Shown here one piece after another: positions 8,915 to 45,422 of a stretch of DNA of 52,615 nucleotides. The notes below the pieces were generated by a model. The model searched no databases. It saw only the letters and a list, made by a program, of their open reading frames with translations, and was not told the DNA's origin. The translations under genes and the position numbers were made by a program. Location: NCBI GenBank assembly GCA_027006175.1, contig JALTKS010000077.1:1-52615 (forward strand). The letters are read 5' to 3'. Positions within the stretch are counted from its first letter, which is position 1; each line of letters starts with the position of its first letter. This DNA comes from Gammaproteobacteria bacterium. GTDB lineage: Bacteria; Pseudomonadota; Gammaproteobacteria; AKS1.

Positions 8915-9059
8915 GTTGTTGTCTTATTTTCTTTTGTTGCGTACGAAATTTTCGTAACGGTAACCAGACATTCAGTCCAAGAATAACGGCTGCGAGCAGG
9001 TAGCTAGTCCATACATGGAAAGCATATCCGCCCATATTAAAAAATTCGGCCCAATTCAT
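8898..9059 (-). CDS. ccmD: Heme exporter protein CcmD
   Basis: 53 residues from the ATG at 9057-9059, which overlaps the ccmC stop as ATGA; a start 21 bases upstream is possible but would lie inside ccmC and lacks the usual spacing. It has one transmembrane helix after the N-terminal WAEFFNMGGYAFHVW, a typical CcmD opening, and a basic cytoplasmic tail. CcmD holds the CcmABC transporter and CcmE together to release holo-CcmE. Confidence 0.9.
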   Translation of the reverse strand: MNWAEFFNMGGYAFHVWTSYLLAAVILGLNVWLPLRKFRTQQKKIRQQHETTS

Positions 9060-9781
9060 GCGCCTTGTTCCTTTAACCAACGTGAGTCTGCTTCATTTTC
9101 AAGGATGTCTGATCGCATGCGTAATAGGACAACGCTGATGAAGAAAAGTTTGAAGGCGCCCATCATCACCAGGAGTGGAATTAAAATACTACTGTGAATA
9201 CGTGGGCCATCAATGCGCGCCACCGAAGCAGGTTGATGTAAGGTGTTCCACCACTCTACCGAGTAATGAATGACGGGCAGGTTGATAACACCGACCAGGA
9301 CCAAAACAGCGCCAGCACGTGCAGCACGGCGTGGATCATCAATGGCTGATTGTAATGACATAAACCCTAAGTATAGAAAAAGCAGAATTAATTCTGATGT
9401 GAGGCGTGCATCCCATACCCACCATGTTCCCCACATGGGTTTACCCCAAATAGATCCCGTTACCAAGGCAAGTAAAGTGAACGAGGCGCCAATCGGGGCA
9501 GCACAAGCAATAAACGTATCAGTGAGTTTTATTTTCCAGACTAGACCGACCGCAGCCGCCCCTGCCATGGTGGCGTAAATGAACATCGACATCCACGCCG
9601 CAGGGACATGGATAAACATAATGCGAACGGTTTCACCTTGTTGGTAATCAGGAGGAGCAACAAATAAGCCAAGGTACAAACCCGCAGCGAGTGTTAGGGC
9701 ACATAGCCATGCAAACCACGGCAGCATCTTACCAGCGAGTGGGTAAAAGTATTTTGGCGCGGCGTATTTTTGAAATATCAC
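9056..9781 (-). CDS. ccmC: Heme exporter/heme handling protein CcmC
   Basis: 241 residues with six membrane helices and the WWD-type heme-handling motif in WGTWWVWDARLTSEL. Conserved periplasmic histidines flank it (FIHVPAAWM and VIHYSVEWW). CcmC loads heme onto the CcmE histidine. It lies 48 bases after ccmB and overlaps ccmD by 4 bases. Confidence 0.96.
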   Translation of the reverse strand: MIFQKYAAPKYFYPLAGKMLPWFAWLCALTLAAGLYLGLFVAPPDYQQGETVRIMFIHVPAAWMSMFIYATMAGAAAVGLVWKIKLTDTFIACAAPIGASFTLLALVTGSIWGKPMWGTWWVWDARLTSELILLFLYLGFMSLQSAIDDPRRAARAGAVLVLVGVINLPVIHYSVEWWNTLHQPASVARIDGPRIHSSILIPLLVMMGAFKLFFISVVLLRMRSDILENEADSRWLKEQGA

Positions 9782-9829
9782 TGTGCTGGCCCATTGTTTG
9801 TTAGCGTATTCATAAAGACAGTTTACCAG

Positions 9830-10516
9830 TTAATCCAATGAAACTCTTAATGCGTAGCTGGTGATCCACGGTGCAAAGATAAGGGTAATAATCAAATAAG
9901 CACCTAATAATGATAATTGAGCTTCGGCGGGGAAACCATTGCTGGTCGCAATAATGGCACCGGTAGCAAAAATAAGCACTGGAATGTAAAGCGGTAGAAT
10001 TAATAATGCCAACAGCACACCGCCGCCACGTAAGCCAAGCGTTAGCGCGGCACCAATAGCCCCCACGAGACTAAGAATAGGCGTGCCAAGCAAGAGGGTG
10101 ATCATGGTGTAGATTAATGCACTGGATGACATATCAAGGCTGACACCCAGTAATGGGCTGATGATAACCAGAGGAAGCCCTGTGGTTAGCCAATGTGAAA
10201 AAATTTTAGCAGACACCAAAATACTTGCAGGTTGAGGTGACAGTAATAACTGTTCAAGTGTGCCGTCATGTAGTTCATTACCAAACAGTCGGGAAAGTGA
10301 TAATAAGGTTGCTAGTAACGCGGCAACCCAGATAACACCAGGTGCAATGGTGCGTAACATATCCGGTTCAGGGCCAACGCCCAAGGGAAATAAACTGATC
10401 ACGATAATGAAAAAGATCAAGGGCGTCATAATGTCATTGCGTTGCCGATAGGCAAGCAATAACTCGCGTTTTAACACGCGCTGCCAGGCAGAGAACAAAT
10501 TAATATTAGCCGCCAT
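9830..10516 (-). CDS. ccmB: Heme exporter membrane subunit CcmB
   Basis: 228 residues, six predicted membrane helices, and the recognisable N-terminal block RELLLAYRQRNDIMTPL plus NELHDGTLEQLLLSP. CcmB is the permease partner of the CcmA ATPase; the complex releases heme-loaded CcmE. Its ATG directly follows the ccmA stop codon with no gap. Confidence 0.96.
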   Translation of the reverse strand: MAANINLFSAWQRVLKRELLLAYRQRNDIMTPLIFFIIVISLFPLGVGPEPDMLRTIAPGVIWVAALLATLLSLSRLFGNELHDGTLEQLLLSPQPASILVSAKIFSHWLTTGLPLVIISPLLGVSLDMSSSALIYTMITLLLGTPILSLVGAIGAALTLGLRGGGVLLALLILPLYIPVLIFATGAIIATSNGFPAEAQLSLLGAYLIITLIFAPWITSYALRVSLD

Positions 10517-11122
10517 TTAACTTAGTACCACATTAATACTGACGCGAGAAATAAAACTCGCATCCTGATGAGTGGTGATAACCGCCATACCGCCTGTTTC
10601 TAAATGTTGCGTGAGGCGTTGACTAAACCATTCAACCGCATTTACATCGAGCGCAGCGAGAGGTTCATCAAGAACCCAGAGTTTGCAGGGTTCAAGTAAT
10701 AACCGTGCTAATGCAACACGGCGTTGCTGGCCCTGGGATAATAAGCGTAGTGGTTTGTCATAATGTTGACTAAGCCCAATTTCTTCAAGCGCTGAAAAGA
10801 TGACTGCACGATGAGCGGTTTGTTGGCAAGAAAGCCTGAGGTTTTCTACAGCATCAAGATCGCTGTGCATGCCATGACGATGACCGATGTAGAGAAGGTT
10901 TTCGTTGAAGTCATCGCGGTTTGATTCGATGGGTTGTTGTTGCCAGATAATATTACCTTCTGCCGGCAAGGTCAGGCCACAGAGCATGCGTAGCAGGGTG
11001 GTCTTGCCACTGCCGTTACTACCACTGACGTGAAGTAGGGCACCTGCTTCTAACTGGAAAGACACATCGGAAAAAAGTCGCTGGCCGCCACGTTCGGCAG
11101 CCAGTGTATTTGCTTGTAACAT
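10517..11122 (-). CDS. ccmA: Heme exporter ATP-binding subunit CcmA
   Basis: 201 residues, normal for CcmA. Walker A is GSNGSGKTT, the ABC signature is LSQGQQRR and Walker B is LWVLDEPLAALD. It begins 12 bases after the stop codon of the LVIVD ten-heme cytochrome gene, so the maturation genes are likely read through from the electron-transfer cluster and made together with their substrates. Confidence 0.96.
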   Translation of the reverse strand: MLQANTLAAERGGQRLFSDVSFQLEAGALLHVSGSNGSGKTTLLRMLCGLTLPAEGNIIWQQQPIESNRDDFNENLLYIGHRHGMHSDLDAVENLRLSCQQTAHRAVIFSALEEIGLSQHYDKPLRLLSQGQQRRVALARLLLEPCKLWVLDEPLAALDVNAVEWFSQRLTQHLETGGMAVITTHQDASFISRVSINVVLS

Positions 11123-11134
11123 TACTGGACAGGT

Positions 11135-14100
11135 TTATCTTTTTTCACTGCGAACCATGTCATCCAACTTCGCCTCATCTGTAACAAAGTAGGGGTCGCC
11201 GTGTTCATCTAAATAGAGTTTTTGCATTTCTTCCAGATTAAATGGGCGTGAACCAATACGACCAAATATTGCAACTTGACCACCGGTTTCATCCACTGCT
11301 CGGTCACGTGCAAGACCTTTAGACAGTGCCAGTGCTGGTGAATTAGTTGGTGCGGTTGCAATTAATTCAGGCACAGGTTCCGGGCTAAAGCCATAGAAAC
11401 GTGGCTGTGAATCAGGTGAGGTTAATTGCAGCACTTTAAGACCGTTCTTGCCATCGGCTACATAACCGATAAGTGAAGCATTGGTTGTACCAATCACAAT
11501 GTCGCGTGCATCGTTTAATTGACCATCAGCGGTGTACTTCATGTAAACCTTAGGCTGTTCTGGTTTTTCAACGTCGATGATAACTATACCTTCACTGCCT
11601 GCTGCAACATAGGCATAAGTCCGTGCAACGTAAATGCGATGACCATCTTTGAGTGGTACAAAGGCATTGTCAACAATCTTGGGTTTAGCCGGGTGCGTTA
11701 CATCAACCACCTTAAAGCCTTCATCATCGGTTACAAACAGGTAACGGAACTGAACGGTTGTGGCACGTGGGTTCTTCATCGGAATCACGTTAAGCAACTT
11801 GGGCTTGGTTGGGTCGTCCATATTCACAACCACAACCCCCTTCGGTGTCGTGATGTAGAAGTTGTAACCGGCAATAGTTAAATGACTTGCGCCATTCAGC
11901 ACACCATTTTCATTCCACGTTGTTTTACGTTCGAAGAAGTTATTACGTGGCTCACCATCAGAAAGGGTGTTGATATCAACCACGATCAAACCTTCTTCTG
12001 AATCAGTGATGAACATATTGTCGTAGATAGGATGCATGGGTTGTTCAAGATTCACTTCTTGCATCATCTTGCTGCGACTACGTACTGCATGCACAGGTTG
12101 CGTCGTTGGTAATACAACACAAGTTGCATTCTTGGACTTGATACGTGTGTTATGACCTAAGGGACTAAATGGCGCCGTAATAACGCGCTGTGAAAAGCCT
12201 TTGTTAGCAATGCTGGCTACGTCATAAGCTTGTGTACCATTTTTGCCTTCAGAAACGTATAAGTATTCGCCGCGAAGCTGTAGGCAATTTGCCTGTTCAG
12301 AATCATGACGGAACACGTATTCCAGTTTTTCAGGTAATACACGGTTGTTATCAAGATGATCCTTGTACCAGTCAGGGTAGGCGTACTTGTGCAAGTAACT
12401 ACCAATAACAGCTTGTGGCTCTTCCCATTCGGTAACACGCTGACCAATAATCTGGTCTTCAGTACCAACCCATGCGTAATAACCAACAAAGTTGACGAAG
12501 TTGGTCCCTAGCAGTAATAACTGCGACATGATGGCATTGTTATCGTTTGCTTCAGACAAGTGACAATCGGTACAGGTCTTGGTTTCTGTTTTACGCGTAG
12601 TATGCGGGAAGTGTGGTGCAAAGGCTTGAGAGCTATAACCACTTGCCGCAACCGGAGGTTGTTGAATATAAATTAACTCACGGTTTGCATTACGTGAAGA
12701 CAGGACTAATGCAGATGAAGAACGCACGGGTGCAATACGACCACCCTTGGCTGGACCGTGTTTGCCCAACTGGTACATTTGATCTCGTACCACTTGTGGG
12801 TTGTAGGTAGCATAGTTACGTGTTTCGCCGCCTTCGTAATGACCACGTTCTGCTTTCCAGTTTGCCTGAATTGGCAGGTGACAACCGGCACAACTGGTTG
12901 CCCATGAACTATGGCAGGTGAAACAGAGCATGTTTTCATTTTTGTGCGCGCGATCTTCTTTCGCGACACCAAGACCCCATTCAAAGGTCTTTTTATTCTT
13001 AGACATTAATTTTGCACGCGCTGATTTAGCATTAAAGTCTTTATGATCAGGATTAACATTATTTTTGACTAATGACATTTCCCATTCACGATCAGGCCAG
13101 AGTGATGAACGTTGAATTAATTTGTCATCACGCCACTCAAAACGTTTTTTGCCTGTTGGTGTACGAAGCAGTGACAAGTCGTTACCACCTGGCGGTGCTG
13201 CAGGCCCAGATGTTTTCAGCGTAGGGTATTCATCAGCCGTGCCGTGACAATCCATACAGTCAATTTCAACCGACTGCGCAACTTCGCCATAAATATGTCC
13301 GTTACCGTGTGCATCTTGTGCAAAGTGACAGTCAACACAGTGCATGCCTACATCAAGGTGAATCGATGACATGTGTACCGCTTTTTTAGCCCACTTGGGA
13401 TCGTCTTCTGAAACGATCTTGCCATCTTTATCCAGCATGTTGCCTTTACGGTCACGCTTGAAAATAGCGCGGAAGTTCCAGCCATGACCGTGGTAATCCG
13501 CAAATTGTGTATCGCTTAATTCTTCATTGTTATCCCAAACCTTTTCAAGGAATTCACGATCACTCCACTTACCACGAATCGCGGCTTCCTCTGGATTGTG
13601 CTTGTTGATTTCACGAATCTCGGCAGCCGTTGGGTAGCGTTGTTCTTTTGGCCACATATGCGGTGCATCTGATTCATAATCCCACATGGTGTAACCAAGG
13701 TAACTGTTCACGAACACATTGGGTTGATGCATGTGACAGTTCATACACAGTGAGGTCGGAATTGAACGTGAGAACTCATGTTTAATCGGGTGACCTGATT
13801 CATCTTTATCAATGGTTGGATCAACTGTTTGTGATTTGCCTTTGTGACCAAATTCCGCATAAGGACCTGAATGGCGCGGGTCGCGATCATTGGCATAGAC
13901 AACATGACAGGATGAACAACCGGAAGAACGGAAGTCACCAGGACCATCATTGGTACCGAGGAACCAAAGGAACGGATCGTTTAAGCGCGTTTTAGTAATG
14001 TTAAGAACAGGAACTGAAATTCGTTGACCTGTACCTGGGCCACGGTTTGATTGTTTGATATCTGGACGCCCCGGTTCTTCAAGTTGTTGGATACGACCAA

Positions 14101-14890
14101 GACTGTTTGGTAAACCTGTTTCCGCAAACAGGTTAACAATGTTACGACCACCACGTTCAAATACACGGAAGATATCGCCGGGAGGAACGGTTTCCCAACT
14201 TGGTAGAGGGAATAGTTGTGCTAAGGCACCTTTTGCTGCCATTTCAGGCGTTGGTTTAACAGGGGCAACCAGAGAAGCAGGTTCGCCATCACGGGTGTAG
14301 GCTTCACCAAGGATGTAACGTTTAAAAGGTAGAATACCATTGTTATAAGCACCACCACCCCAAAGCATAATACCGGTTGCCATCATGCTGCGTTCACTGG
14401 CTTGAATGATTGGCAAGTGACAGGCACCACAGGCTTCACGTGCAACACGTAAGTCACCCGGATTTACGAAGCGAACAAACTCAGCGCTTTCGTTATTTAG
14501 TAGAGTAAAACTGATTTCAGGGTTGGCACTGCTTGGGTAATTCCAGGTTTTTGGGAAGCGGGGTTGTACATGGCTCTTATCCAGTGCCGCTCGGTAAGCT
14601 TTATCACCTTTCTTTGTGTTAGCGGGTTTTTTAACTGTGGCGTCACCACCATGACAATCAGTACAGCCAAGCACAACAGAAGGGCTAATATGCATGGTTT
14701 TACGATCTGATTTTGAGTGACAGGTAATACAACCTTCGCTTTTAGGATCAGCTTCCTCCCATGTTTGATGTTTGGGCGCATCTGGTGTAACGGCATATTT
14801 TATATCACGCGGCTTTTCCAAATCAGACGCGGACGCAAAAATGCTAGTCAGACAAAGCAGACCAATAGTGAGCAGAGATTGTTTCATCAC
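11135..14890 (-). CDS. Ten-heme c-type cytochrome with C-terminal LVIVD-repeat beta-propeller
   Basis: 1251 residues with a signal peptide (cleavage near FASAS). Ten CXXCH motifs are visible: CITCH (54-58), CTDCH (76-80), CGACH, CSSCH, CMNCH, CVDCH, CMDCH, CFTCH, CAGCH and CTDCH, all in the N-terminal two thirds. The last roughly 400 residues contain blades of the LVIVD type (GLIVVDI, GVVVVNM, GFKVVDV, GIVIIDV, GLKVLQL), which form a beta-propeller. There is no lipobox, so it is either periplasmic or exported to the surface. It follows an outer-membrane barrel gene (27-base gap) and precedes ccmA, consistent with a terminal electron-exchange component. The substrate is unknown. It is not recognisable as MtrA or OmcA. 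Confidence 0.85.
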   Translation of the reverse strand: MMKQSLLTIGLLCLTSIFASASDLEKPRDIKYAVTPDAPKHQTWEEADPKSEGCITCHSKSDRKTMHISPSVVLGCTDCHGGDATVKKPANTKKGDKAYRAALDKSHVQPRFPKTWNYPSSANPEISFTLLNNESAEFVRFVNPGDLRVAREACGACHLPIIQASERSMMATGIMLWGGGAYNNGILPFKRYILGEAYTRDGEPASLVAPVKPTPEMAAKGALAQLFPLPSWETVPPGDIFRVFERGGRNIVNLFAETGLPNSLGRIQQLEEPGRPDIKQSNRGPGTGQRISVPVLNITKTRLNDPFLWFLGTNDGPGDFRSSGCSSCHVVYANDRDPRHSGPYAEFGHKGKSQTVDPTIDKDESGHPIKHEFSRSIPTSLCMNCHMHQPNVFVNSYLGYTMWDYESDAPHMWPKEQRYPTAAEIREINKHNPEEAAIRGKWSDREFLEKVWDNNEELSDTQFADYHGHGWNFRAIFKRDRKGNMLDKDGKIVSEDDPKWAKKAVHMSSIHLDVGMHCVDCHFAQDAHGNGHIYGEVAQSVEIDCMDCHGTADEYPTLKTSGPAAPPGGNDLSLLRTPTGKKRFEWRDDKLIQRSSLWPDREWEMSLVKNNVNPDHKDFNAKSARAKLMSKNKKTFEWGLGVAKEDRAHKNENMLCFTCHSSWATSCAGCHLPIQANWKAERGHYEGGETRNYATYNPQVVRDQMYQLGKHGPAKGGRIAPVRSSSALVLSSRNANRELIYIQQPPVAASGYSSQAFAPHFPHTTRKTETKTCTDCHLSEANDNNAIMSQLLLLGTNFVNFVGYYAWVGTEDQIIGQRVTEWEEPQAVIGSYLHKYAYPDWYKDHLDNNRVLPEKLEYVFRHDSEQANCLQLRGEYLYVSEGKNGTQAYDVASIANKGFSQRVITAPFSPLGHNTRIKSKNATCVVLPTTQPVHAVRSRSKMMQEVNLEQPMHPIYDNMFITDSEEGLIVVDINTLSDGEPRNNFFERKTTWNENGVLNGASHLTIAGYNFYITTPKGVVVVNMDDPTKPKLLNVIPMKNPRATTVQFRYLFVTDDEGFKVVDVTHPAKPKIVDNAFVPLKDGHRIYVARTYAYVAAGSEGIVIIDVEKPEQPKVYMKYTADGQLNDARDIVIGTTNASLIGYVADGKNGLKVLQLTSPDSQPRFYGFSPEPVPELIATAPTNSPALALSKGLARDRAVDETGGQVAIFGRIGSRPFNLEEMQKLYLDEHGDPYFVTDEAKLDDMVRSEKR

Positions 14891-14917
14891 GGTTTTTATT
14901 CCATGTTGTGTTGCATG

Positions 14918-17131
14918 CTAATAAGTTAATAGTAAGTTAGCCAAAATTGAGTAGGAGGTTTCGTCTCCATATAACTCTTTAAAACCATCGCCGGGCTCGA
15001 GTGCTGCGGCTGACAGTCTGAATATGACATTCTGGGTAAAGAATGGACGGTAAATAGCAGATACAGATAAATCCCAGCCGATATCATTATCGATTGAACC
15101 TACTTGACGGTATGCCTCTAGCGAAGCGGTATTCGCAAAGCCAAGTTTGTTCGCGTTAACAGAAACACGCCATTCAGGTGTAATGTCAAAGTCAGCACCA
15201 ACACCGATTAACGTTGTGCCCGGGTTAACAAAGTTAGATTGCCCTTGTTCCTTTGATGTCCGAAGTGAGTTTAAAATACCGTTACGTGCAGAGAGTGCTA
15301 CACCACCACCACCAATGTTGGCGACAGGTTGGCGAATCCAGAAACTGGTATCTGAACCGGCGAATTGCGGGTTTTCAAAAATAGCATCAAAACCCTGAGA
15401 AACATTATCGAATGGATCTTTATCACCACTGGCGTAAAGACCGGATAAACGTACGCGAATCCAGTCAAAGTCCATCGATGCTTCAGCTGCAAGGAAGAAT
15501 GCATCAATACGTGTTTTGCCATTGAAGAACGCATTACGGCTTTCATTACCGGTTGCATAGTAATAAGAGGTTGTTAAGTTAACACGACCAAAATGACCAT
15601 CACCGTTGTAGCCAATATAAGTCACATTGTAGTTACGTGGTCTACCATCACCGAGTGGGGCTGGGCGAGCAAGAAAACCATTACTATCAAAGAACAGCCC
15701 ATCATCACCTTCACGGTTACGGTTATGAATCACCGTTGCTTGAGAGGTGTAACCAATAACAGGGAAATCCTGTTTATAGATGTTGGCAATAAAGACATCA
15801 TCATCACGTAGAGATTTACTGATATCGTTTAAACCACTATTGAGGTCTTTATCGACACGGCGGAACCAGGCCAGGTTGTATTGGTAAAAGTTATTATCCC
15901 GGTTACCAAATAAACGAATACCAAATTGTTGATCCTGAAACAGGAAGCCACGGAAGTCAGTATTAAAAGGTTGAATACCGACACGGATCGAATCGAAATC
16001 ATAACGATCCGATACATTGCGTAAATGTTTGTCCCAGAATAATTCCTGAACGCCTACATGCGTATCTCTGCGTACATTGCCGCGCCCGGGTAATACTGAC
16101 AGGACACGATCTTCTTCAACTTCAACGCGATTGTAGTTAAAAGCAAGGGTTAAACGGAACTCATGATCGGGTGGCTTAAATGCCGTATCACCTTTATACA
16201 GCACAAAACCGGTAATTAATGTTTGACTAAATACGGTTTGATCGCGTCCACCAAAGACATCGAGCGCACCAGGTGAGCGGCTGGTTGCAGGCGAAACAGG
16301 TGTGGGTAATTTACGCGGTTCATAAACGGTATCTGAAATAATATTGGCACTAAAGAACCAGTCTTTTGTGCCTAAAATAGGGCGATCACCTTTTAGGGTA
16401 TTCTGGTTGTAGGGGTCAAACCATCGTTCATTGACACCAATAGCCTCAACAATACGGTAACGGTCGGGAACAGGCACAACCGGATGCGGTAAGTTTGGGT
16501 TTGAAATAGCAATGGGCCGCAGATCGGTATTTCTGTTCGGATCTTCCTGTTTTGGTGCAGGACGGTCCGGTTTACGTTCAGCACCTGGACGGCGTCGATC
16601 TACTTCAGCGACGATAATTTCTTCAGTAGGTTCTTGATAAGCCCAAGGCCCCGAAGGTTCCTGATTTAGCGACTGATCGCTACTGAGGCTAAAACCATTT
16701 TCGCGTATACCAAATTCATTGTAGGTATCAGCAGCAGCAACAACGGTATTTGTAGAGGTTGCTTCTGTTGTAAAAGGATTGACTTCATCTTGACTTGACG
16801 TCATTAAAATATCATCAGTTGATACCGTTTTTTTTGTATCGTCAGTAGCGTAGTTAAGAGCAGTGCTTAATTCCAAATGACCAAGTGAATGATTTTCAGG
16901 TTGAGGTGTCTTCTTATTGGTCGCATAGTTGAAAGTAGTGTTTATCTTCATGCTGCCCGTTTGCTGGATAGTCTTGCTATGCATTTTACTCTTGGTTGCA
17001 TAGTTAAACACAGTCGTCACTTTGATATGACCGGGTTTTGTTTCGTCAAGGGTAGCCGCATTTGCCAATGCAAGGTTGGCAGTGAGTGACATAACCAGAC
17101 AAAGCGTACTATGTGAGCTAAAATTTCTCAT
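14918..17131 (-). CDS. Outer-membrane beta-barrel protein of the electron-transfer cluster
   Basis: 737 residues: signal peptide (cleavage near ANAAT), three 25-residue repeats (34-108), a disordered Pro/Arg-rich linker (about 180-215), then a barrel-like series of alternating strands ending in SILANLLLTY, with a C-terminal aromatic. It occupies the position that MtrB/PioB-type porins hold in known conduits, but I see no MtrB signature, so it is a functional analogue by context only. Only 2 bases separate it from the preceding lipoprotein gene, so the pair is translationally coupled. It may carry substrates or hold a multiheme protein across the outer membrane. Confidence 0.75.
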   Translation of the reverse strand: MRNFSSHSTLCLVMSLTANLALANAATLDETKPGHIKVTTVFNYATKSKMHSKTIQQTGSMKINTTFNYATNKKTPQPENHSLGHLELSTALNYATDDTKKTVSTDDILMTSSQDEVNPFTTEATSTNTVVAAADTYNEFGIRENGFSLSSDQSLNQEPSGPWAYQEPTEEIIVAEVDRRRPGAERKPDRPAPKQEDPNRNTDLRPIAISNPNLPHPVVPVPDRYRIVEAIGVNERWFDPYNQNTLKGDRPILGTKDWFFSANIISDTVYEPRKLPTPVSPATSRSPGALDVFGGRDQTVFSQTLITGFVLYKGDTAFKPPDHEFRLTLAFNYNRVEVEEDRVLSVLPGRGNVRRDTHVGVQELFWDKHLRNVSDRYDFDSIRVGIQPFNTDFRGFLFQDQQFGIRLFGNRDNNFYQYNLAWFRRVDKDLNSGLNDISKSLRDDDVFIANIYKQDFPVIGYTSQATVIHNRNREGDDGLFFDSNGFLARPAPLGDGRPRNYNVTYIGYNGDGHFGRVNLTTSYYYATGNESRNAFFNGKTRIDAFFLAAEASMDFDWIRVRLSGLYASGDKDPFDNVSQGFDAIFENPQFAGSDTSFWIRQPVANIGGGGVALSARNGILNSLRTSKEQGQSNFVNPGTTLIGVGADFDITPEWRVSVNANKLGFANTASLEAYRQVGSIDNDIGWDLSVSAIYRPFFTQNVIFRLSAAALEPGDGFKELYGDETSYSILANLLLTY
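16808..17032 (-). repeat. Three 25-residue tandem repeats at the N terminus of the barrel protein
   Basis: Residues 34-58, 59-83 and 84-108 each begin G-x-hydrophobic and share the core NYAT at the same place: GHIKVTTVFNYAT, GSMKINTTFNYAT, GHLELSTALNYAT. The period is exactly 25 residues for the first two units. The core resembles a beta strand; the variable half is polar. Confidence 0.85.
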
Positions 17132-17133
17132 GA

Positions 17134-19248
17134 CTATTTTCCATCACAGACATTTTCGTCATTATTATTAATGAAAGGGTTTTGTGGGCATTGAATATAA
17201 CGTAATGGCTGACCGGCAAACGCAGGCGGTGTTATGTTATCTGCTCTAATGGCTGTTGGCGCATTGCCAATAATCATGTCACCAGCATCACCAATGCCAT
17301 CACCACCTAAGGCCAAACTGGCGCGGTAGGTACCAAGGAAGGAAATCATATCATCTTGATCAACGCCATCGCCGGAAACACCGATACCGCCAATAAGCAC
17401 ACCATTACGATAAATTGGTACAGAACCAGGGAAAATCTGAATACCATTTGACAAGCGGGCTGTGCTAACACAGTTAGTGGCATTAACGCCGCCAGCTAAA
17501 TGATTGACTAGTCCATTTAACACCAGATCCAATTGCATACCATTGGAGAAGGGGCTCCATGAGTTCGATGCAGGTGTTGTTACAAAGGGTTTACTAAAAG
17601 GTCCGTTATTGGGGAGTGCTACAAGGTCATTGCCATCAGGGTAGAATGGACGAGATAAATTCCCGCCTGATCGATCAGCAAAAGCAGTGCCATTGGCTAA
17701 GGCTGCATCCGTTCCAAGAAATGCTCTAACACCTTTACCACTTGCGACTGAACCGACATAGTCGGCAGAAAAATCTACGACAGTTGTTGATGCTGTGCCA
17801 TTCGCATTAAGGTAGGTTACATCGTTTTCAGCAGATAAAACTGTTCCGGCATCAGTACTCGAGAAGAATGTTGCAGTGCGCGCTTTTTGTAATGAAACAT
17901 CAGTACCAAATAGCGGTGCATCACGCGTTCTTGCGATACCTAAGATATTACCTGCTGTATCAACAACTGAGATTGTTACACGTGCCTGACTATCAAGTGG
18001 ACGGCGAATTTGTGCACGCGCTTCATTGGCAACGCCAAGTGCACTGCGGAGTATTTGTGTAACATCTGCTGCGGTGAGTTCGTTACCGCCGACCGCAACA
18101 ACCGCGTCGCGGGGTGCATAGCGATTATTGCCTGCACCGTCGGTGAGTACAAATGCATCTAAACCAGGAAACAGGGTCGCATCAATGACGTCAGCATCTT
18201 CTATCCCGGAATTAGGCATACCAAAAGTAGAACCGTTAAGAAGCCCGTTTGCAGCAATAAAATAATTTCGTACAGCGATTGGTGTCGCCGGTGTGACTGG
18301 ATCGGCGCGATTATCATCAATAAGGTTTCCTAAAACGCCGTTGATAGTAGCAAAAGCAGGCGCGTTAGCTGGATTACTTAGCAGGTCACCGCTGTCAACA
18401 TCGGAGTAACGTAAGCTACGTCCATCGACAGTGATTCGGTTAGCCTGCCGATCAACAGGGGGAGCATAGCCAAATTGACCGGCAATAGCGATGAGCTCGT
18501 CAACACTATTATCATTATCAAGAATGTTTCTGTCTAAACCGTAAACACCATCGGCAATAACACCAATACCGCCAACAGGATGGCCATTTTTATAAAGCGG
18601 GAAGCCACCAGGATCAGCAGATAAACCGAGCGGTGAACGTTGAGGTCCAATCCCGATACCGGCACTGCTTGCTGCGTTATTTGCATCGGTAACCAAATCA
18701 CTACACGGTAATTGACTAAACTGTACCCCAAATAGTGGGCCGCCCGGTAGACCGGTTTCATGTGGGCTAAAATGTTCTTGAATGATATGACTTGCTGTGC
18801 GGGTACTAAAGGCGTTGCCTTCTGATGCAAGGTATGAACCTGTGACCGCCTTGGCGATGGCAGCAAGGTCGCTCGGTAAAATAGCCAGGTTTTCAAGCCC
18901 TGAAACGCTAGGCGTATCGACCAAGGTTGAACGAATAGTAAACGTTGTTGCCGCACCGTTCATTTGAAATAGCCCAAGGACATTACCAACGCGATCAGTG
19001 ACAGCAATGGTTGCATTTACGCCACGCATTTGTGCTTCTTGTACTGCACGAGAAATAACAGTGCCAACATCGGTAGCAGTAAGAAACGCAGGACTGTTTG
19101 TAGCACAAAAACCGGTACACCCAGAATCAAAGTTACTTCCTTGTGCTGCAGCATTGCCCTTGCTTCCACCACCACCGCCACCACAGGCTGTGATGAGAGT
19201 CAGGCTAGCTAGCAGCGCGATGCTGCGTGTAAATTTTGCTACGTTCAC
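17134..19248 (-). CDS. Lipoprotein with two HbpS/GlcG-type heme-binding domains
   Basis: 704 residues. The N terminus is a lipoprotein signal with lipobox LITAC (Cys22) followed by a glycine run. Two copies of the HbpS/GlcG (DUF336) fold are visible, opening with LTATDVGTVISRAVQEA and LTAADVTQILRSALGVA; both have the later IPIYRNG-like and GGIGV segments (PLYKNGHPVGGIGV, PIYRNGVLIGGIGV). HbpS members bind heme or iron at their surface. Between barrel and FHA-cytochrome genes, it could be an outer-membrane heme or redox partner. No CXXCH is present. There is a 29-base gap to the upstream gene. Confidence 0.8.
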   Translation of the reverse strand: MNVAKFTRSIALLASLTLITACGGGGGGSKGNAAAQGSNFDSGCTGFCATNSPAFLTATDVGTVISRAVQEAQMRGVNATIAVTDRVGNVLGLFQMNGAATTFTIRSTLVDTPSVSGLENLAILPSDLAAIAKAVTGSYLASEGNAFSTRTASHIIQEHFSPHETGLPGGPLFGVQFSQLPCSDLVTDANNAASSAGIGIGPQRSPLGLSADPGGFPLYKNGHPVGGIGVIADGVYGLDRNILDNDNSVDELIAIAGQFGYAPPVDRQANRITVDGRSLRYSDVDSGDLLSNPANAPAFATINGVLGNLIDDNRADPVTPATPIAVRNYFIAANGLLNGSTFGMPNSGIEDADVIDATLFPGLDAFVLTDGAGNNRYAPRDAVVAVGGNELTAADVTQILRSALGVANEARAQIRRPLDSQARVTISVVDTAGNILGIARTRDAPLFGTDVSLQKARTATFFSSTDAGTVLSAENDVTYLNANGTASTTVVDFSADYVGSVASGKGVRAFLGTDAALANGTAFADRSGGNLSRPFYPDGNDLVALPNNGPFSKPFVTTPASNSWSPFSNGMQLDLVLNGLVNHLAGGVNATNCVSTARLSNGIQIFPGSVPIYRNGVLIGGIGVSGDGVDQDDMISFLGTYRASLALGGDGIGDAGDMIIGNAPTAIRADNITPPAFAGQPLRYIQCPQNPFINNNDENVCDGK

Positions 19249-19278
19249 GGGTACTTTCCTCTGATAAATCTTTTGTTA

Positions 19279-21012
19279 TTACTTACTCGGTTTTTCCATG
19301 CGTGCCGCTGTTGCCGATCGTTCATTTCTTGCTGGCATGCCTTTGCGATCACCTAACAGGAAGTCATCAGCGATATGGAAACCATGGCAATCAACACAGG
19401 TTGATTCAACTTTATTATGTACTTCACTGGTGCCGGCATGACATTGCTGGCAATTATCAATCGCAGGAATTAATACATCACCACTGTCTTCTGATTTAGA
19501 TGCATCATGACAATCTGTACATTCCATCGTTTTATGTTTGTTGTGCACAAAGCGTGATTTTGGCAACCATGTATCGGCAATACGCACAGGGGCAATTTCC
19601 CATTTAGGTGAATCACCGTCTTTTACTTTTGTGACATCATGACAGGTTGCACAAACACGATCTTCAAACAGGTCTTCGCCAACACTCATGGCTTTTTGTT
19701 TTGCCCACAGGAAGGCATCTTTGCGTTCACGAGGTGTTACTCGTTGACCAGGACGACGACGATTACGGACAACAGCAGGCGCATCAATGTCATCGTAGCC
19801 ACCTTTAAGAGCCACGTTGCCATAGTATTCAGTCAAGGTATAAAGAATATGTTCAAGGTTGCCATGTGGAACGACGCGTTGTGGCACATCTTCTTCAAAT
19901 TCGAGACGGTGACACTGTGCACAATGGTCTTTCATGTTAATGGGTTTCATGCCGATGCCACCAGGCTCAGGTTGGTGACAGTCAGCACAAACCATCACTT
20001 GATTGCCATTAGGTGAATCAAGACCTTCAGGATCCAGATGGGTATCATGCGGGAATTTCAAGTTAGATGTTTCTACCGGTTTGTCTTTTAACGCATCACG
20101 TTCAGATGTGAATTTTTTGGCAGCGGCATCATAACGGAACATAGTGGCGCTAAAGTCTGGATGGTTTTTACCAAAGTCTTGTACATTCTTTAAATCAGTA
20201 CCGGTTTTTTCATCCAGATCTTTATGGCAATCACCACAAAGCCCTTCATCACGGCGAACCAGACCATCACGACCATTGTGTTCTTTATGACAGGTTGCAC
20301 AGCGTGTTTCATTCAGTCCGGACAGTTCAAAGAACAAGGGATCGGCATGAGTATGTGTTTCCGTGTGACATGTCACACAAGCCACATCACGCACAGTGGT
20401 AAAGGCTTCCTGGTGACATGCTTTACAGTCATTGGCGAAGAAAGTGTGCGCAGATTCGAACTCACCGGTTTTCCAGGCGATGTCAGCGGTAATCGGTGCG
20501 TCTTTAAACATATCGCGCACGTCATCAGAGAAGAATGCAGCAATCGGTAAAGCAAGGAATAGTGCAGCGATAACTGTAAAGAACACCCAGGACCAACGGC
20601 GACGACTAAAGCCTGTTGCAGCAAGCGTAGTAACCGAACGCTGTTTTAATTTTTCCAGATCATCACCAAGTTGACGAACTAGCTCAACAGTAATGTCGAG
20701 ATCTTTGCCTTCGTCAGCAGACACTATTTTTATATCGTAAGGACCAACAGCAATGATGTCACCGCCATTAAGACGGGTACTTTGTATGATGTTGTTATTA
20801 ACACGAATATCAGAGCCGGATTCCGCTTCGATGTAATAACGTCCCTGGCGGTCATGGATAGTTGCATGATGTAATGAGGTACGGAAATCAGACAAGTAGA
20901 GTTCATTGTCGGTGCTGCGACCGATACGAATACTCGAACCTGAGATAACGTCATCTTTATGGGTGACGCCACCGCGGGACTTACGTGTTAGAAAACTGAC
21001 ATTACACTGCAT
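19279..21012 (-). CDS. FHA-domain, membrane-anchored ten-heme cytochrome
   Basis: 577 residues. Residues about 20-100 are an FHA phosphothreonine-binding domain (SIRIGRSTDNELYLSDF, with Ser46 and His49 in the usual places). One transmembrane helix lies at about 141-161, and the rest is periplasmic with ten CXXCH sites: CKACH, CVTCH, CATCH, CGDCH, CADCH, CAQCH, CATCH, CTDCH, CQQCH and CVDCH. There is no cleavable signal; the FHA part should stay in the cytoplasm. Position after the di-heme b gene (9-base gap) suggests that it takes electrons from that protein at the periplasmic face, like CymA or NapC but unrelated in layout. The fusion of a signalling domain with a multiheme wire is unusual. 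Confidence 0.88.
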   Translation of the reverse strand: MQCNVSFLTRKSRGGVTHKDDVISGSSIRIGRSTDNELYLSDFRTSLHHATIHDRQGRYYIEAESGSDIRVNNNIIQSTRLNGGDIIAVGPYDIKIVSADEGKDLDITVELVRQLGDDLEKLKQRSVTTLAATGFSRRRWSWVFFTVIAALFLALPIAAFFSDDVRDMFKDAPITADIAWKTGEFESAHTFFANDCKACHQEAFTTVRDVACVTCHTETHTHADPLFFELSGLNETRCATCHKEHNGRDGLVRRDEGLCGDCHKDLDEKTGTDLKNVQDFGKNHPDFSATMFRYDAAAKKFTSERDALKDKPVETSNLKFPHDTHLDPEGLDSPNGNQVMVCADCHQPEPGGIGMKPINMKDHCAQCHRLEFEEDVPQRVVPHGNLEHILYTLTEYYGNVALKGGYDDIDAPAVVRNRRRPGQRVTPRERKDAFLWAKQKAMSVGEDLFEDRVCATCHDVTKVKDGDSPKWEIAPVRIADTWLPKSRFVHNKHKTMECTDCHDASKSEDSGDVLIPAIDNCQQCHAGTSEVHNKVESTCVDCHGFHIADDFLLGDRKGMPARNERSATAARMEKPSK

Positions 21013-21021
21013 GACTAAGGC

Positions 21022-21861
21022 CTACCAATAAAAGAAGATTGAAACGACGTGTGCTATCAGTGCAGCAAGTAAAGCGAACGATAGTGGTACATGGAAGTAA
21101 AGCCAGATATCCATCATTGCTTTGTATTGCACATCGCGGCAAGCACGTTGAACGAGTTCACATTTTTTACCAAGTAAGGTGATGAGGCGACTGCCATCGT
21201 CTGCCATTTCTTTTGGTAATGATTTGTTAAGTTCGCTGACTTTATTAAAAGCAGATTGAGTAGCGCAGTGCTTGGGTCTGCCTGATAATTGCTGACGAAC
21301 CGAACCACCAATGGTGGTTTTTTCACTCGACTCTAAAATACATTTACTAATTTCATCAGTTAGTTTAGCGGCTGTTTCACGGCATTCACGATCAAGCTCT
21401 GACATTTCAATCATCATTAACTCAAGTGTATTGCCGCGACGATTTTTCGTCATTAACTCGGGGTAACGCAGGTAAGCATAAACACCAAAGATGCCACTGA
21501 TGATAACAATGAACATTAATACGTAGGCAAGGGTATGAAGATTCCAGCCAACCTGAAAACCGGCGTGCAGTGTTGCAATAACAATCAGGGCCAAACCAAG
21601 GTAAACGTGAGCGGATAACCAGCCTTCAACTTTACCCATAGACGATTTGTATGAGCGCTTGCGCATGCCAAACCACATTAATAATAAAATCAGGAAAGCG
21701 CCAAGACCACCCAGGGTATAACCTAACCAGGTGCCACCGTTAGGGCCATCAACAGGTGCGTGGATGGCATAAGCAACCACCGACGCAATGATTAACAACA
21801 TACTTAATTTTAAGTAACGATAACCACTGTAAACAAAAAGTGACTGATGCATCATTGCCAA
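21022..21861 (-). CDS. Di-heme b-type transmembrane cytochrome (ferric-reductase-like)
   Basis: 279 residues with about five membrane helices. Two helices each carry a pair of histidines exactly 13 residues apart: H-VYLGLALIVIATL-H and H-VPLSFALLAALIA-H. Two H-x13-H helices are the heme-binding pattern of cytochrome b and of the ferric reductase/NOX superfamily, implying two stacked hemes spanning the membrane. A soluble insert of about 100 residues with five cysteines separates the two helices. It lies 6 bases after the reductase gene and 9 before the FHA cytochrome gene, as expected for a protein that moves electrons across the inner membrane between them. Confidence 0.8.
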   Translation of the reverse strand: MAMMHQSLFVYSGYRYLKLSMLLIIASVVAYAIHAPVDGPNGGTWLGYTLGGLGAFLILLLMWFGMRKRSYKSSMGKVEGWLSAHVYLGLALIVIATLHAGFQVGWNLHTLAYVLMFIVIISGIFGVYAYLRYPELMTKNRRGNTLELMMIEMSELDRECRETAAKLTDEISKCILESSEKTTIGGSVRQQLSGRPKHCATQSAFNKVSELNKSLPKEMADDGSRLITLLGKKCELVQRACRDVQYKAMMDIWLYFHVPLSFALLAALIAHVVSIFFYW

Positions 21862-21867
21862 AGTGTC

Positions 21868-24300
21868 CTAATAATTTTCAAGGTTAGTAACAGACATAAA
21901 TTCGCTTGGATTAACACGAATTGCAGCACCTGTTGGACAGGCTCTTACGCAAGAAGGGCCGCCTGGCATGTCTTTACACATGTCACATTTTACGGCCATT
22001 TTCTTCGCATCTGGATCTTGTTTCGCTTTTTTGAGGTTACTCGTGCCTGGTGCCAAACCTGCACCGGTTAACAACCAGGAAACCAGACTGGTTTTGTGTT
22101 TCTTTGATACCATTGCCATTTGAATAACGCCGTAAGGGCAATTACGTTGGCAGTTGCCACAACCAATACAGTTACTGGCAATATAAACTTCGCCATTTTC
22201 TGCTCGGCGAATAGCATCGGGTGGACAATCTTGCATACAGTGTGGATGTTCACAGTGGCGACAAGACGTAGGAACATGGATAGACGCAAAGGTAGGTCCT
22301 GCTTCACGGTCGAGTCGAGATGTACCGTAATGTGTTTCGGCACAGGCTTTTTCGCAATTATCACAACGAACACAAAGAGATTCATCGATTAATAATACGT
22401 CAGTTGCTTCACCAAGCCCTTGTTCAACGAGGAAGCTGATAATCGTGCCTGAATCTGTATTGTCTTCCATTTGCACGTTAACTTGTTTACGACTATCGAT
22501 TACTTCTTGCACGCGTTTGCGAACATCTTCATCTTCGTCAGCAAGTTTGCGGAAGGCATCGCCATCAAGGCAAATAGTTTCGGTGGCCACTGCAGCGCGA
22601 ATGGTGGCGGAGCGATGGCTATCACCGAACAAAGCCATTTCACCTACATAGTTACCCGCAGGTAAATATGAAAGAACAACTTCTTTGCCACCGACTGTTT
22701 TAGAAACAGTTAGTGAGCCGACACGCACCAGATGCAGTGAATCGCCTTCATCGCCTTCACGGAAGAGGACTTCACCTGCTTTAAATGATTTTAGCGTTGC
22801 CGTTTTAATAACAGACTGGAGTTTTTCTACGGGCGTGTTTGGTGCAATCTTCGCTTGTAATGCACGCATTAAGAAGGCTTCATCAATGACTCGTTTAACC
22901 GATTCAACCGAGCTAATGGTTTTGTTCATGGAGCGTCGTGGTGTTTCGATTAACACACAGTTTTTGCCAGCAAGAATAGTCGCTGAACGGCGATGCCCTG
23001 AGATCAAACTCATTTCACCAAAGAATGCGCCTTTACTTAAAGAAATACGTTGGCTTGGGTCTTTAGGATTAATTTGTACCTGTACTTCACCACTAACAAT
23101 TGAATAGAAGGTATTGGTGAAATCATTGCGCTCAAAAATAATGTCACCTTCAGCTGGCGTGCGCATATCACTGTCGATCATGAACTCGCGAAGTTGCAAG
23201 GTTGTTAAACCGGATAGCAATGGTACGTTAGTCGTGATCATTTTGAGCACATCACTAACGGACATGTTGTTGTTACGTGCACTGAACTTACGGAATTTTT
23301 CTTTTAGTAATGGTTCGTCAGCAGGTTCAACATCATTGCCTTCGATGAACTCAATGACTTCGTAGCCCTGGTTCATGGCGGATTTAATCAGTGGGTAACC
23401 GGCCAAGGCACCAACAATATATAAACCAGATACATTTGATTCGTATTGGTTGGTTAATGCAGGGACGGCCGCTGGATCGTCACTTGGAAATTCAATCCCA
23501 CAAGATTGTACAAAGCGTCGTGGTGCAATGGCGCCAAGACGCGCAATAATGCGATGACAGTTAACTTCTGCTTCACCGTTTTTAGTGGCTAGAACAATCT
23601 TACCCACTTCACCTGAACCCAGAGGCGTATCAAATTGCTCTACACGAACGGTGTTTGAATTGTAATAAGGCTCGATAACATTGGTTTCGATGGCTTTGTT
23701 AATGCCATCTTCGTTACCTTGTTTGGCGCGTGAAAATTCATCTTTACGGTTAACAATAATAACCGTGTTTTGTTTCGTCAGGGCAAGGGCATTTTCAATG
23801 GCAGCATCACCGGCACCAATGACAACAATCGTTTCATCAGCGTATTCATCCGGATCATCAAGTTGGTATTGCACCATATCGAGGTCTTCACCTTCGACAC
23901 CTAATTTGCGTAAGTTGCCTTGCAGGCCGATGCCCATGACAACAAATTCAGCGGTGATGGTTTCACCCGATTTGGTTTTAATGGTGAAATCACCTTTAGA
24001 ACCGCTAATTTCAGTGACTTCACAGTTGTACTTTACGTTAGTGTTATGAGCAGCAACTTGTGTGTTCCATACCTCGAGAATGTGCTCACGCGTGCCGGCT
24101 GCAAAATCGAGAGGGCTTCGTAAAGGCAAGACTTGAGGCTCATCCATCACATGCTTGCCTTTCTGATACTTATAAATGGTATCTGAAAGATGATCAGTAC
24201 TTTCTAGTAGCACGTGTGAAATGCCTAATTCCGCAGCATGAGCGGCGGCACTCATGCCACCAGGTCCGGAACCGACGATGGCGATTTTGAAATCAGCCAT
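21868..24300 (-). CDS. FAD/NAD(P) oxidoreductase with two cNMP-binding domains and a four-cluster ferredoxin domain
   Basis: 810 residues. Residues 1-330 are a thioredoxin-reductase-like flavoprotein with FAD motif GSGPGGM (10-16) and NAD(P) motif IGAGDAA (161-167); there is no redox CXXC, so it resembles ferredoxin reductases rather than true thioredoxin reductase. Two cyclic-nucleotide-binding domains follow (about 365-470 and 490-595), each with an intact phosphate cassette (FGEMSLISGHRRSAT and VGEMALFGDSHRSAT). The C terminus has four 4Fe-4S Cys groups: CDNCEKAC, CRHCEHPHCMQDC, CIGCGNCQRNC and CDMCKDMPGGPSCVRAC. It is cytoplasmic, with a strong Shine-Dalgarno sequence GGGGGAG before the ATG. 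As first gene of the operon it would feed electrons from NAD(P)H to the membrane cytochrome. Confidence 0.88.
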   Translation of the reverse strand: MADFKIAIVGSGPGGMSAAAHAAELGISHVLLESTDHLSDTIYKYQKGKHVMDEPQVLPLRSPLDFAAGTREHILEVWNTQVAAHNTNVKYNCEVTEISGSKGDFTIKTKSGETITAEFVVMGIGLQGNLRKLGVEGEDLDMVQYQLDDPDEYADETIVVIGAGDAAIENALALTKQNTVIIVNRKDEFSRAKQGNEDGINKAIETNVIEPYYNSNTVRVEQFDTPLGSGEVGKIVLATKNGEAEVNCHRIIARLGAIAPRRFVQSCGIEFPSDDPAAVPALTNQYESNVSGLYIVGALAGYPLIKSAMNQGYEVIEFIEGNDVEPADEPLLKEKFRKFSARNNNMSVSDVLKMITTNVPLLSGLTTLQLREFMIDSDMRTPAEGDIIFERNDFTNTFYSIVSGEVQVQINPKDPSQRISLSKGAFFGEMSLISGHRRSATILAGKNCVLIETPRRSMNKTISSVESVKRVIDEAFLMRALQAKIAPNTPVEKLQSVIKTATLKSFKAGEVLFREGDEGDSLHLVRVGSLTVSKTVGGKEVVLSYLPAGNYVGEMALFGDSHRSATIRAAVATETICLDGDAFRKLADEDEDVRKRVQEVIDSRKQVNVQMEDNTDSGTIISFLVEQGLGEATDVLLIDESLCVRCDNCEKACAETHYGTSRLDREAGPTFASIHVPTSCRHCEHPHCMQDCPPDAIRRAENGEVYIASNCIGCGNCQRNCPYGVIQMAMVSKKHKTSLVSWLLTGAGLAPGTSNLKKAKQDPDAKKMAVKCDMCKDMPGGPSCVRACPTGAAIRVNPSEFMSVTNLENY

Positions 24301-24747: not shown

Positions 24748-26718
24748 ATGGGGATGCAGGGCTTTATTAGCAATTACCTAGTTGAATTTGGTCATCTAGC
24801 CGTTTTTACAGCATTTATTTTGTCGATAGTTCAAGCGGCTGCACCCTGGCTGGCGGGGCGTCTGGAAACCCCCGCGTTGGCGCGCAGTGGCATCATGGCA
24901 AGTTATATCGTATTGATTTTAATGACAATTGGTGGCGCGACCTTAATACATGCCTTCGTGATAAGTGACTTTACGGTACTTTATGTTGCGTCTCACTCAA
25001 ATGTGGAATTGCCACTCCTATATAAGGTCACGGCACTTTGGGGGGGGCATGAAGGGTCACTATTCCTCTGGGCATGGATATTGTCGGCCTTTACGACCTT
25101 GCTTGCTATTCAAGGTAAGCGATTGTTTCCTAAGCGATTACCGGTACTTTTGAGTGTGCAGGCACTGTTATTATTAGGTTTTTTAGGTTTGATTCTGTTC
25201 TTATCAAATCCTTTTGAACGTCTTTTACCCGGTGCGGTAGCGGGAAGAGATTTAAACCCATTACTGCAGGATCCTGGCATGGCATTTCACCCCCCTATGC
25301 TTTATCTCGGTTATGTTGGCTTCTCAATCCCTTTTGCCTTTGCAATGACCGCCATGCTGACGCGTTGGGAAACAACACTATGGATTGGCTTGATTCGCCG
25401 TTGGACCTTGTTTGCATGGACAATGTTGACTATTGGCATCATGTTAGGCGGCTGGTGGGCCTATTACGAATTAGGTTGGGGTGGTTACTGGGCATGGGAT
25501 CCGGTTGAGAACGCATCCTTTATGCCCTGGTTGCTGGGTACGGCACTGATTCATTCGATTACGGTGCAAGAAAATCGCCGTATGTTACAGACATGGAATT
25601 TGTTTTTAGCGATCAGTACATTTTCATTGTCATTGCTCGGTACTTTCCTGGTTCGCTCGGGTGTTTTGTCATCGGTGCATGCTTTCGCGGTTGATCCCGG
25701 GCGTGGTCTTTATATTTTAATGTTTATGGGCACCGTGTTAGTTGTTTCATTTGGTTTGTTTCTGGCAAAAGGGCGGGTTGACCCACAGCGAGAAGCAATG
25801 AGCTCATCCATGTCTCGCGAAATGTTGTTTGTGATGAACAATGTGCTCTTTAGTGTTTTATGTGTTCTGGTTATGTTGGGTACATTATATCCTTTAGCGC
25901 TTGAAGCTATTAATGGTGCCAAGATAACTGTTGGCGCACCTTATTTTAATGCCGTGCTCATTCCGTTTTTCTTTTTAGTGATTTTGTTAATGGGGGTTGC
26001 TCCTGCAACGCCATGGCGTAATGTTAATTTATCCAGACTTTGGTCTCGTTTAGGTATGCCGATGGGCATTGGTTTTATTGCTGCGGTCATCATGTTTGTA
26101 TGGGACAGTCAGGCACACTGGTTTGCATTTGTTGGTACAGGATTGGTTGCTTTTGTATTGGCCGCTATGTTGGTTGATTTTTACCGAAATGCACGTCGTC
26201 GAGCAAAACAAAATAATGACAATATTGTGAGTGCCTGGTTTTATTTGGTAAAACGAAATCGCCGATACTATGGCGGTATGTTTGTGCATCTGGGTATTCT
26301 TGTGATTGCTATTGGTATGATTGGTTCGGGTTTGTTTCGACAGGAACAAGTGGTGCTGATGGCGAAAGGTGATGTGATTGAAATCGGTGGCGAGAAATTA
26401 CGTTTTGATGGCGTAAAACAATTCAAGAAAGATAATTATTTTGCGCTGCAAGGTCAGTTTGCTTTGCTTGGTACGGATATCGTATTAAAACCTGAGCGCC
26501 GTAAATATCCTGTGCAGGAAGCACCTACAACTGAATCCGGTATTCATGCAAACTGGGCTCGTGATGTTTATTTTGTTATTGGTGAATTGGTTGATGGCCG
26601 CTACTCGGTGCATGCCTACGTGAACCCTTTAGTACAGTGGATATGGTTTGGTGGCTTTATTATTGTTTTCGGTATTGGCTGGTCATTGTCGCAACGTATT
26701 CGTGAGAAACGAGCATGA
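24748..26718 (+). CDS. ccmF: Cytochrome c heme lyase subunit CcmF
   Basis: 656 residues from the ATG at 24748; the ATG at 24754 is better spaced from AAGGGA and may be the real start. It is a polytopic membrane protein with the WWD heme-handling motif (GWGGYWAWDPVENASFMPWL) and periplasmic His residues, ending in a periplasmic domain and last helix. CcmF joins heme from CcmE to CXXCH of apocytochromes with CcmH and CcmI. First gene of ccmFGHI, overlapping ccmG by 4 bases (ATGA). It is transcribed away from ccmABCDE, which lies about 13 kb to the left on the other strand. Confidence 0.96.
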   Translation: MGMQGFISNYLVEFGHLAVFTAFILSIVQAAAPWLAGRLETPALARSGIMASYIVLILMTIGGATLIHAFVISDFTVLYVASHSNVELPLLYKVTALWGGHEGSLFLWAWILSAFTTLLAIQGKRLFPKRLPVLLSVQALLLLGFLGLILFLSNPFERLLPGAVAGRDLNPLLQDPGMAFHPPMLYLGYVGFSIPFAFAMTAMLTRWETTLWIGLIRRWTLFAWTMLTIGIMLGGWWAYYELGWGGYWAWDPVENASFMPWLLGTALIHSITVQENRRMLQTWNLFLAISTFSLSLLGTFLVRSGVLSSVHAFAVDPGRGLYILMFMGTVLVVSFGLFLAKGRVDPQREAMSSSMSREMLFVMNNVLFSVLCVLVMLGTLYPLALEAINGAKITVGAPYFNAVLIPFFFLVILLMGVAPATPWRNVNLSRLWSRLGMPMGIGFIAAVIMFVWDSQAHWFAFVGTGLVAFVLAAMLVDFYRNARRRAKQNNDNIVSAWFYLVKRNRRYYGGMFVHLGILVIAIGMIGSGLFRQEQVVLMAKGDVIEIGGEKLRFDGVKQFKKDNYFALQGQFALLGTDIVLKPERRKYPVQEAPTTESGIHANWARDVYFVIGELVDGRYSVHAYVNPLVQWIWFGGFIIVFGIGWSLSQRIREKRA

Positions 26719-42975: not shown

Positions 42976-43059
42976 ATGAAACACCTGTTTAAACTTTTAC
43001 CAAAAAATCCTTATTGTGAGAATACCTCGCGGCTTTCTGGATCGGTCGTCGTAGTCTAA
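42976..43059 (+). CDS. Small leader ORF coupled to the TpsB transporter
   Basis: 27 codons (MKHLFKLLPK to VVVV) from ATG 42976, ending in TAA that shares its last A with the tpsB ATG (TAATG). TpsB itself has no Shine-Dalgarno sequence in the preceding 15 bases, so translation by termination-reinitiation from this ORF is plausible. The ribosome site of the small ORF (GGACG) is weak. No similarity recognised; it may be only a chance frame. Confidence 0.35.
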   Translation: MKHLFKLLPKNPYCENTSRLSGSVVVV

Positions 43060-44825: not shown

Positions 44826-44843
44826 GTGGGGGATGATAACAAC

Positions 44844-45410: not shown

Positions 45411-45422
45411 CAAGGAAGCATT

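Follow-up and report, generated by a model that had tools for sequence, protein, structure and literature searches.

A conserved proteobacterial gene set encodes a candidate NAD(P)H-fed electron chain ending at an outer-membrane barrel

Introduction

Among the porin-cytochrome complexes, PCC4 is known by prediction only (He et al. 2017, PMC5566968). Its multiheme cytochromes carry 4, 5 and 10 hemes, and its inner-membrane protein combines five transmembrane helices with two WX3HX13H motifs and an SGXXG motif; in subgroup II, a pfam13247 Fe-S gene lies upstream of the inner-membrane protein gene (PMC5566968). The direction proposed for PCC4 is inward, from an outside donor to quinone (He et al. 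2017, PMC5566968). In Geobacter, the extHIJKLMNOPQS cluster is linked to selenite/tellurite reduction, and ExtI, a porin-like protein, affects selenite and tellurite reduction (PMC5877670).

Here we analyzed a stretch of 52,615 nucleotides from a gammaproteobacterial genome (GCA_027006175.1, contig JALTKS010000077.1), hereafter the window. A sequence-only reading had proposed in it an undescribed six-gene conduit covering every step from NAD(P)H to the cell surface, its direction being not visible. In the openly accessible journal literature that was searched, we found no description of the gene set, and nothing relevant on LVIVD, FHA or cNMP domains with multiheme proteins. "Undescribed" therefore fits the outer half, for which no published description was found, whereas the inner half matches PCC4 as predicted in 2017 (He et al. 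2017, PMC5566968). The system as a whole appears to be a variant of a mostly predicted kind.

Results

Gene organization

The six tightly packed ORFs were recovered at 11135-24300 in the proposed order, all on the minus strand, with intergenic gaps of 6, 9, 30, 2 and 27 bp, and Pfam agrees with their assignments in outline (Table 1). The 20 c-type heme sites attributed to them are also present, as 10 CXXCH motifs in P0003 and 10 in P0006. Exactly 10 CXXCH were found in 53/53 and 75/75 homologues of the two decahemes, and such invariance indicates that these counts are not due to chance. The P0005 barrel has no CXXCH, which does not fit a Cyc2-type single fused cytochrome-porin with one heme.

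The six genes form a real unit, but the set is not complete at six. Clustering of the ORFs that flank homologous loci brought up a c554-like family, which was then located in the window beyond the six genes and which adjoins the other six in many genomes. With this seventh part, the system totals 24 CXXCH and one CX4CH.

Table 1. Positions of the gene set and associated features in the window
Feature	Positions	Strand	Content or basis
P0001, FAD/NAD(P)H, tandem cNMP and ferredoxin fusion, cytoplasmic	21868..24300	−	Pfam, motifs, homologues
P0002, inner-membrane di-heme b protein	21022..21861	−	Five hydrophobic segments, two WX3HX13H, one SGXXG
P0003, FHA decaheme	19279..21012	−	Cytoplasmic FHA, one TM segment (143-161), periplasmic decaheme
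HbpS/GlcG-type lipoprotein	17134..19248	−	Three stretches, lipobox LITAC
P0005, outer-membrane beta-barrel	14918..17131	−	Predicted: 18 strands after a disordered region (1-250), with an AlgE/OccK-like fold
P0006, LVIVD decaheme cytochrome	11135..14890	−	10 CXXCH; LVIVD beta-propeller at the C-terminus, starting near residue 800
c554-like cytochrome, seventh part	29266..30606	+	4 CXXCH and one CX4CH (CSNSTCH); past ccmF-I
ccmA, ccmB, ccmC, ccmE (heme attachment)	8477..11122	−	Pfam for E; sequence together with position for A, B and C
ccmF, thioredoxin-like (ccmG), ccmH, ccmI	24748..29161	+	Divergent, upstream of the six-gene set
CHASE2-class III nucleotide cyclase	2319..4628	−	Putative cyclic-nucleotide source

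Distribution of the gene set

Scanning genomes with P0006 gave over 500 relatives, and the best 80 were used for locus comparison, yielding 47 named loci of at least 20 kb from alpha-, beta- and gammaproteobacteria. All six genes occur in 44 of these 47 loci, nearly always in the same order, so the co-occurrence expected of a unit is borne out in three classes. Of the exceptions, one is short of HbpS only, and in the other two no inner half was seen over the stretch covered. The commonest order is FAD protein, b protein, FHA decaheme, HbpS, barrel, LVIVD decaheme and c554; the FAD protein comes last in betaproteobacteria, and the inner half is inverted in some alphaproteobacteria. Neighbouring genes mostly touch or overlap across homologous loci. 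In 13 loci (among L018-L035, L049, L060 and L077) that are alphaproteobacterial or group with them, the FHA decaheme and HbpS are separated by a secreted protein of roughly 150 aa.

Among 397 evenly drawn Pseudomonadota, the LVIVD decaheme was found in 13 genomes (about 3%). The barrel was found in 14, namely the same 13 and G197, whose contig stops just past the barrel, and a strong b protein is present in all 14. This supports a unit and the proposed tie between barrel and LVIVD cytochrome; on the exclusive co-occurrence in this sample, the reading of the barrel as an unrelated porin was rejected.

The LVIVD decaheme tree mainly follows the classes, with the alphaproteobacteria as one group; the system is therefore probably old, with patchy loss. 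Plasmid-borne copies occur in Sphingobium and Sphingopyxis, two of the plasmids being typed as conjugative. Cultured carriers include Sphingobium herbicidovorans (on a plasmid), Steroidobacter, Parahaliea, Duganella and Limnobacter. P0006 is 91% identical in Sulfuriflexus sp. RS_11_44, which marks the genome of the window as Sulfuriflexus-like, and the cluster is not present in the complete congener genome G002. We also noticed the cluster in metagenome-assembled genomes titled Bordetella parapertussis, Klebsiella pneumoniae and Marinimicrobia (L043, L073 and L077), titles that look wrong.

Inner half and its relation to PCC4

P0001 had been taken for a flavin/ferredoxin reductase, which describes its FAD-NAD(P) and ferredoxin parts but misses the tandem cNMP domains that are also fused in. 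Pfam and sequence comparison resolve three parts: a YpdA/Bdr-like FAD-NAD(P) domain, a PKA-R-like cNMP tandem and, at the C-terminus, a HycB/DmsB-like ferredoxin. The ferredoxin has 16 Cys in 56/56 homologues, fitting four [4Fe-4S] clusters. The FAD GxGxxG, the NAD(P) GxGxxA and an NRxxEFxRxK stretch are all nearly invariant. In each of the two cNMP domains, the G, E and R residues of the phosphate cassette are 80-100% conserved.

In P0002, the ligand pairs H85/H99 and H257/H271 are invariant. Its sole Pfam match, PF01292, falls below the cut-off of that family, the ferric reductase domain PF01794 was not matched, and a PDB sequence search gave no matches. P0003 has one heme per 35 aa and locally matches MtrA (6r2q_A, E 2.3e-6); in NCBIfam it reaches 28 bits to the DmsE family (cut-off 192), short of MtrA/DmsE membership. 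Because the phospho-threonine contacts of its FHA domain are degenerate, with Ser kept in 11%, gating by phosphorylation is weakly supported.

The inner half may work like NOX or ferric reductase (FRE), which share NAD(P)H, FAD, two b hemes on paired HX13H and outward electrons. Unlike NOX/FRE, it consists of separate proteins with four [4Fe-4S] clusters between FAD and heme and a c-heme extension, and shows no FRD family match.

We compared the locus with PCC4 through the published description and two look-alike clusters, G181 and G447, which come from genomes with the b protein but without the LVIVD decaheme and stand in for the original sequences. P0002 agrees with the PCC4 inner-membrane protein in its five hydrophobic segments and in its motifs, both WX3HX13H being kept in 41/41 homologues and SGXXG in 40/41. 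PF13247 (Fer4_11) occurs in P0001, directly upstream of P0002, which is the subgroup II trait. The heme set here is 4 (plus one CX4CH), 10 and 10, versus 4, 5 and 10 in PCC4. The G181 cluster, comprising a porin-position protein, an NAD-binding/2Fe-2S reductase, a 4-heme c554, a cNMP/Fer4_11 protein, a b protein and a 10-heme cytochrome, agrees with the published text on subgroup II (He et al. 2017, PMC5566968); hhalign gave probabilities of 99.1% for the FHA decaheme and 98.4% for c554 against it. In G447, the FAD protein, b protein and FHA decaheme are 60, 43 and 37% identical to those of the window. This cluster also includes a pair of c554s, a 5-heme cytochrome and a different barrel-sized protein, and its heme numbers are 4, 5 and 10.

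Our locus thus shares with PCC4 the b protein motifs, the Fer4_11 protein upstream, the 10-heme and c554-type cytochromes and a barrel. It differs in the fusion of NAD(P)H-FAD to cNMP-ferredoxin and in the presence of HbpS and the LVIVD decaheme. Compared with the barrels of the two PCC4-like clusters, as stand-ins for the original PCC4 porins, our barrel gave an hhalign probability under 1%. Distance correlations between loci, uncorrected for shared ancestry, peaked in the inner half, at 0.74 for FAD-FHA decaheme, followed by 0.63 for barrel-HbpS, and were lowest between the halves (FHA decaheme-HbpS, 0.20). The inner half is thus homologous to a cluster matching the PCC4 description, and the outer half (HbpS, barrel and LVIVD decaheme) does not appear to be. 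Since the inner proteins join the look-alikes and the barrels do not, and since distances correlate within halves, we concluded from these sequence comparisons that a PCC4-type inner module is joined to various outer cassettes, the present system being one of them.

This kinship bears on direction. If electrons were taken up as proposed for PCC4, Fe(II), Mn(II) or another outside donor would be oxidized at the barrel and electrons would run inward to quinone, consistent with the homology of the inner module to a PCC4-like cluster and with the PCC3/PCC4 motif set of the b protein. We consider such uptake rather improbable: an NAD(P)H/FAD domain is directly fused into the chain, which makes inward flow less likely here, reducing NAD(P)+ with electrons of Fe(II) or Mn(II) would be uphill and against the membrane potential on general bioenergetic grounds, and no evidence of a quinone site was found. 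Direction is hence somewhat more visible than the sequence-only reading allowed, in that outward flow is the more likely direction for a chain with an NAD(P)H domain, yet this domain alone does not fix it.

Outer half

In the barrel model, 18 strands follow a disordered stretch of about 250 residues, with a pLDDT of 66 overall and about 90 in most strands. Similar folds are those of OccK/OprD porins and of AlgE, the latter matching at Z 27.4 with an rmsd of 2.8 over 361 residues; MtrB is absent among the fold matches listed, which is uninformative by itself. A PDB sequence search with the barrel and the LVIVD cytochrome gave no matches. P0006 is the most conserved part of the system (median 64% across homologous loci). 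Its model is good in the propeller only, where structure matches are to generic propellers, and the heme part mostly has a pLDDT below 60.

The layout recalls Shewanella MtrCAB, in which a periplasmic decaheme, an outer-membrane barrel and a large decaheme are likewise combined. By analogy, the LVIVD decaheme could thread the barrel, so that its propeller or hemes outside would pass electrons at the cell surface to minerals, humics or other cells. The nearly constant adjacency of barrel, lipoprotein and decaheme, the heme-rich proteins at both sides of the periplasm and a general plan equal to that of porin-cytochrome complexes all agree with such a conduit. Its dimensions do not: MtrB is a 26-strand barrel, whereas ours is predicted to have 18 strands, giving backbone-to-backbone widths by standard geometry of about 47 and 33 Å, respectively. 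Further, P0006 has one heme per 72 aa, a density that is not wire-like and differs from that of MtrA. No NCBIfam match was obtained for the barrel (MtrB/PioB-type) or, in the case of P0006, for OmcA/MtrC, and P0003 stayed under the MtrA cut-off as noted above. The input also differs, NAD(P)H here versus quinol in MtrCAB, and the named hosts are mostly O2-respiring heterotrophs according to general knowledge of their physiology. We therefore regard the surface conduit as unlikely. The redox domains do span the cell from cytoplasm to outer membrane, as had been claimed, but the last step to the surface is put in doubt by the much narrower barrel and by the plain signal peptide of P0006.

A parallel is offered by Geobacter ext, which also unites a porin-like protein, multiheme cytochromes, a b cytochrome and an Fe-S protein in one cluster. 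Residues 318-777 of P0006 are distantly ExtM-like, at 69.9 bits versus a cut-off of 800 for the ExtM equivalog, so that ExtM is a remote relative of its heme part only; the relation is bridged by 800-aa intermediates scoring about 200 bits. Unlike our locus, ext has a Rieske/bc-type inner part, a rhodanese lipoprotein and a selenoprotein, and lacks the FAD/cNMP protein, FHA and the propeller. ExtM-like cytochromes of 800 aa were seen in the gammaproteobacteria G051, G048, G046 and G035 (L122-L125), the two that were scored against ExtM giving about 200 bits, and in G048 the gene diverges from a Porin_5 gene.

Genomic context

The ccm genes form two divergent blocks around the cluster, which splits the only ccm set of the genome; the only ccmF adjoins the cluster. 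In G002, the ccm set is uninterrupted, and its copies are about 40-60% identical to those of the window, with ccmI lower. P0006 and ccmA likely share one transcript, because ccmA begins 12 bp past P0006. A promoter scan scored no better than shuffled sequences. The host genome has heme-copper oxygen reductases.

Among the Pfam domains of 69 downstream ORFs, only FHA (12) and PP2C (12) recur strongly. A class III cyclase neighbours the cluster in several lineages, at a minority of loci. Besides the CHASE2-type cyclase, the window carries a second class III cyclase of GAF-GAF-PAS type (36051-38342, minus strand), as well as a chromate transporter family protein with two PF02417 stretches (32865-34211, minus strand). 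At 43059-51761 on the plus strand, a ShlB-type transporter, a HlyC-type acyltransferase and a 2112-aa TPS/haemagglutinin protein resemble a cdiB-cdiC-cdiA contact-dependent inhibition locus. A functional tie of the cluster to these two-partner/haemagglutinin genes (43-52 kb) was rejected, as no such pair lies near other clusters and a pair in Sphingobium is not conserved.

Discussion

We propose, at a probability of about one half, that the locus encodes a signal-gated, NAD(P)H-driven outward reductase chain whose last cytochrome works at the barrel. Cytoplasmic NAD(P)H would reduce the FAD of P0001, and the four [4Fe-4S] clusters would relay the electrons to the pair of b hemes embedded in the inner membrane. 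They would then move to the periplasmic FHA decaheme, the c554-like carrier and finally the LVIVD decaheme, which may be docked at the outer-membrane barrel together with the HbpS lipoprotein. A substrate reaching the LVIVD cytochrome through or at the barrel would be reduced there. Such a substrate-fed terminal reductase is favoured by the barrel size, the conservation of the decaheme and the parallel with ExtM/ExtI.

In a NOX/ferric reductase-like inner part, electrons would exit from the negative side and spend membrane potential. A gate would therefore be needed, possibly formed by the two cyclic-nucleotide domains and the FHA domain, and for the same reason main respiration is an unlikely role. 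The conserved phosphate cassettes and the recurring FHA, PP2C and cyclase genes agree with such gating. More tentatively, and with some doubt, we suggest a type of system common in aerobic Proteobacteria and put to non-respiratory use, in which a cyclic-nucleotide-gated NOX-like NAD(P)H reductase feeds a dedicated outer-membrane terminal reductase.

To our knowledge, no described porin-cytochrome system spends NAD(P)H at the outer membrane under second-messenger control. If the proposal is true, this is what ordinary aerobes would do, and the presence of the genes in about 3% of sampled Pseudomonadota and in cultured strains makes it directly testable.
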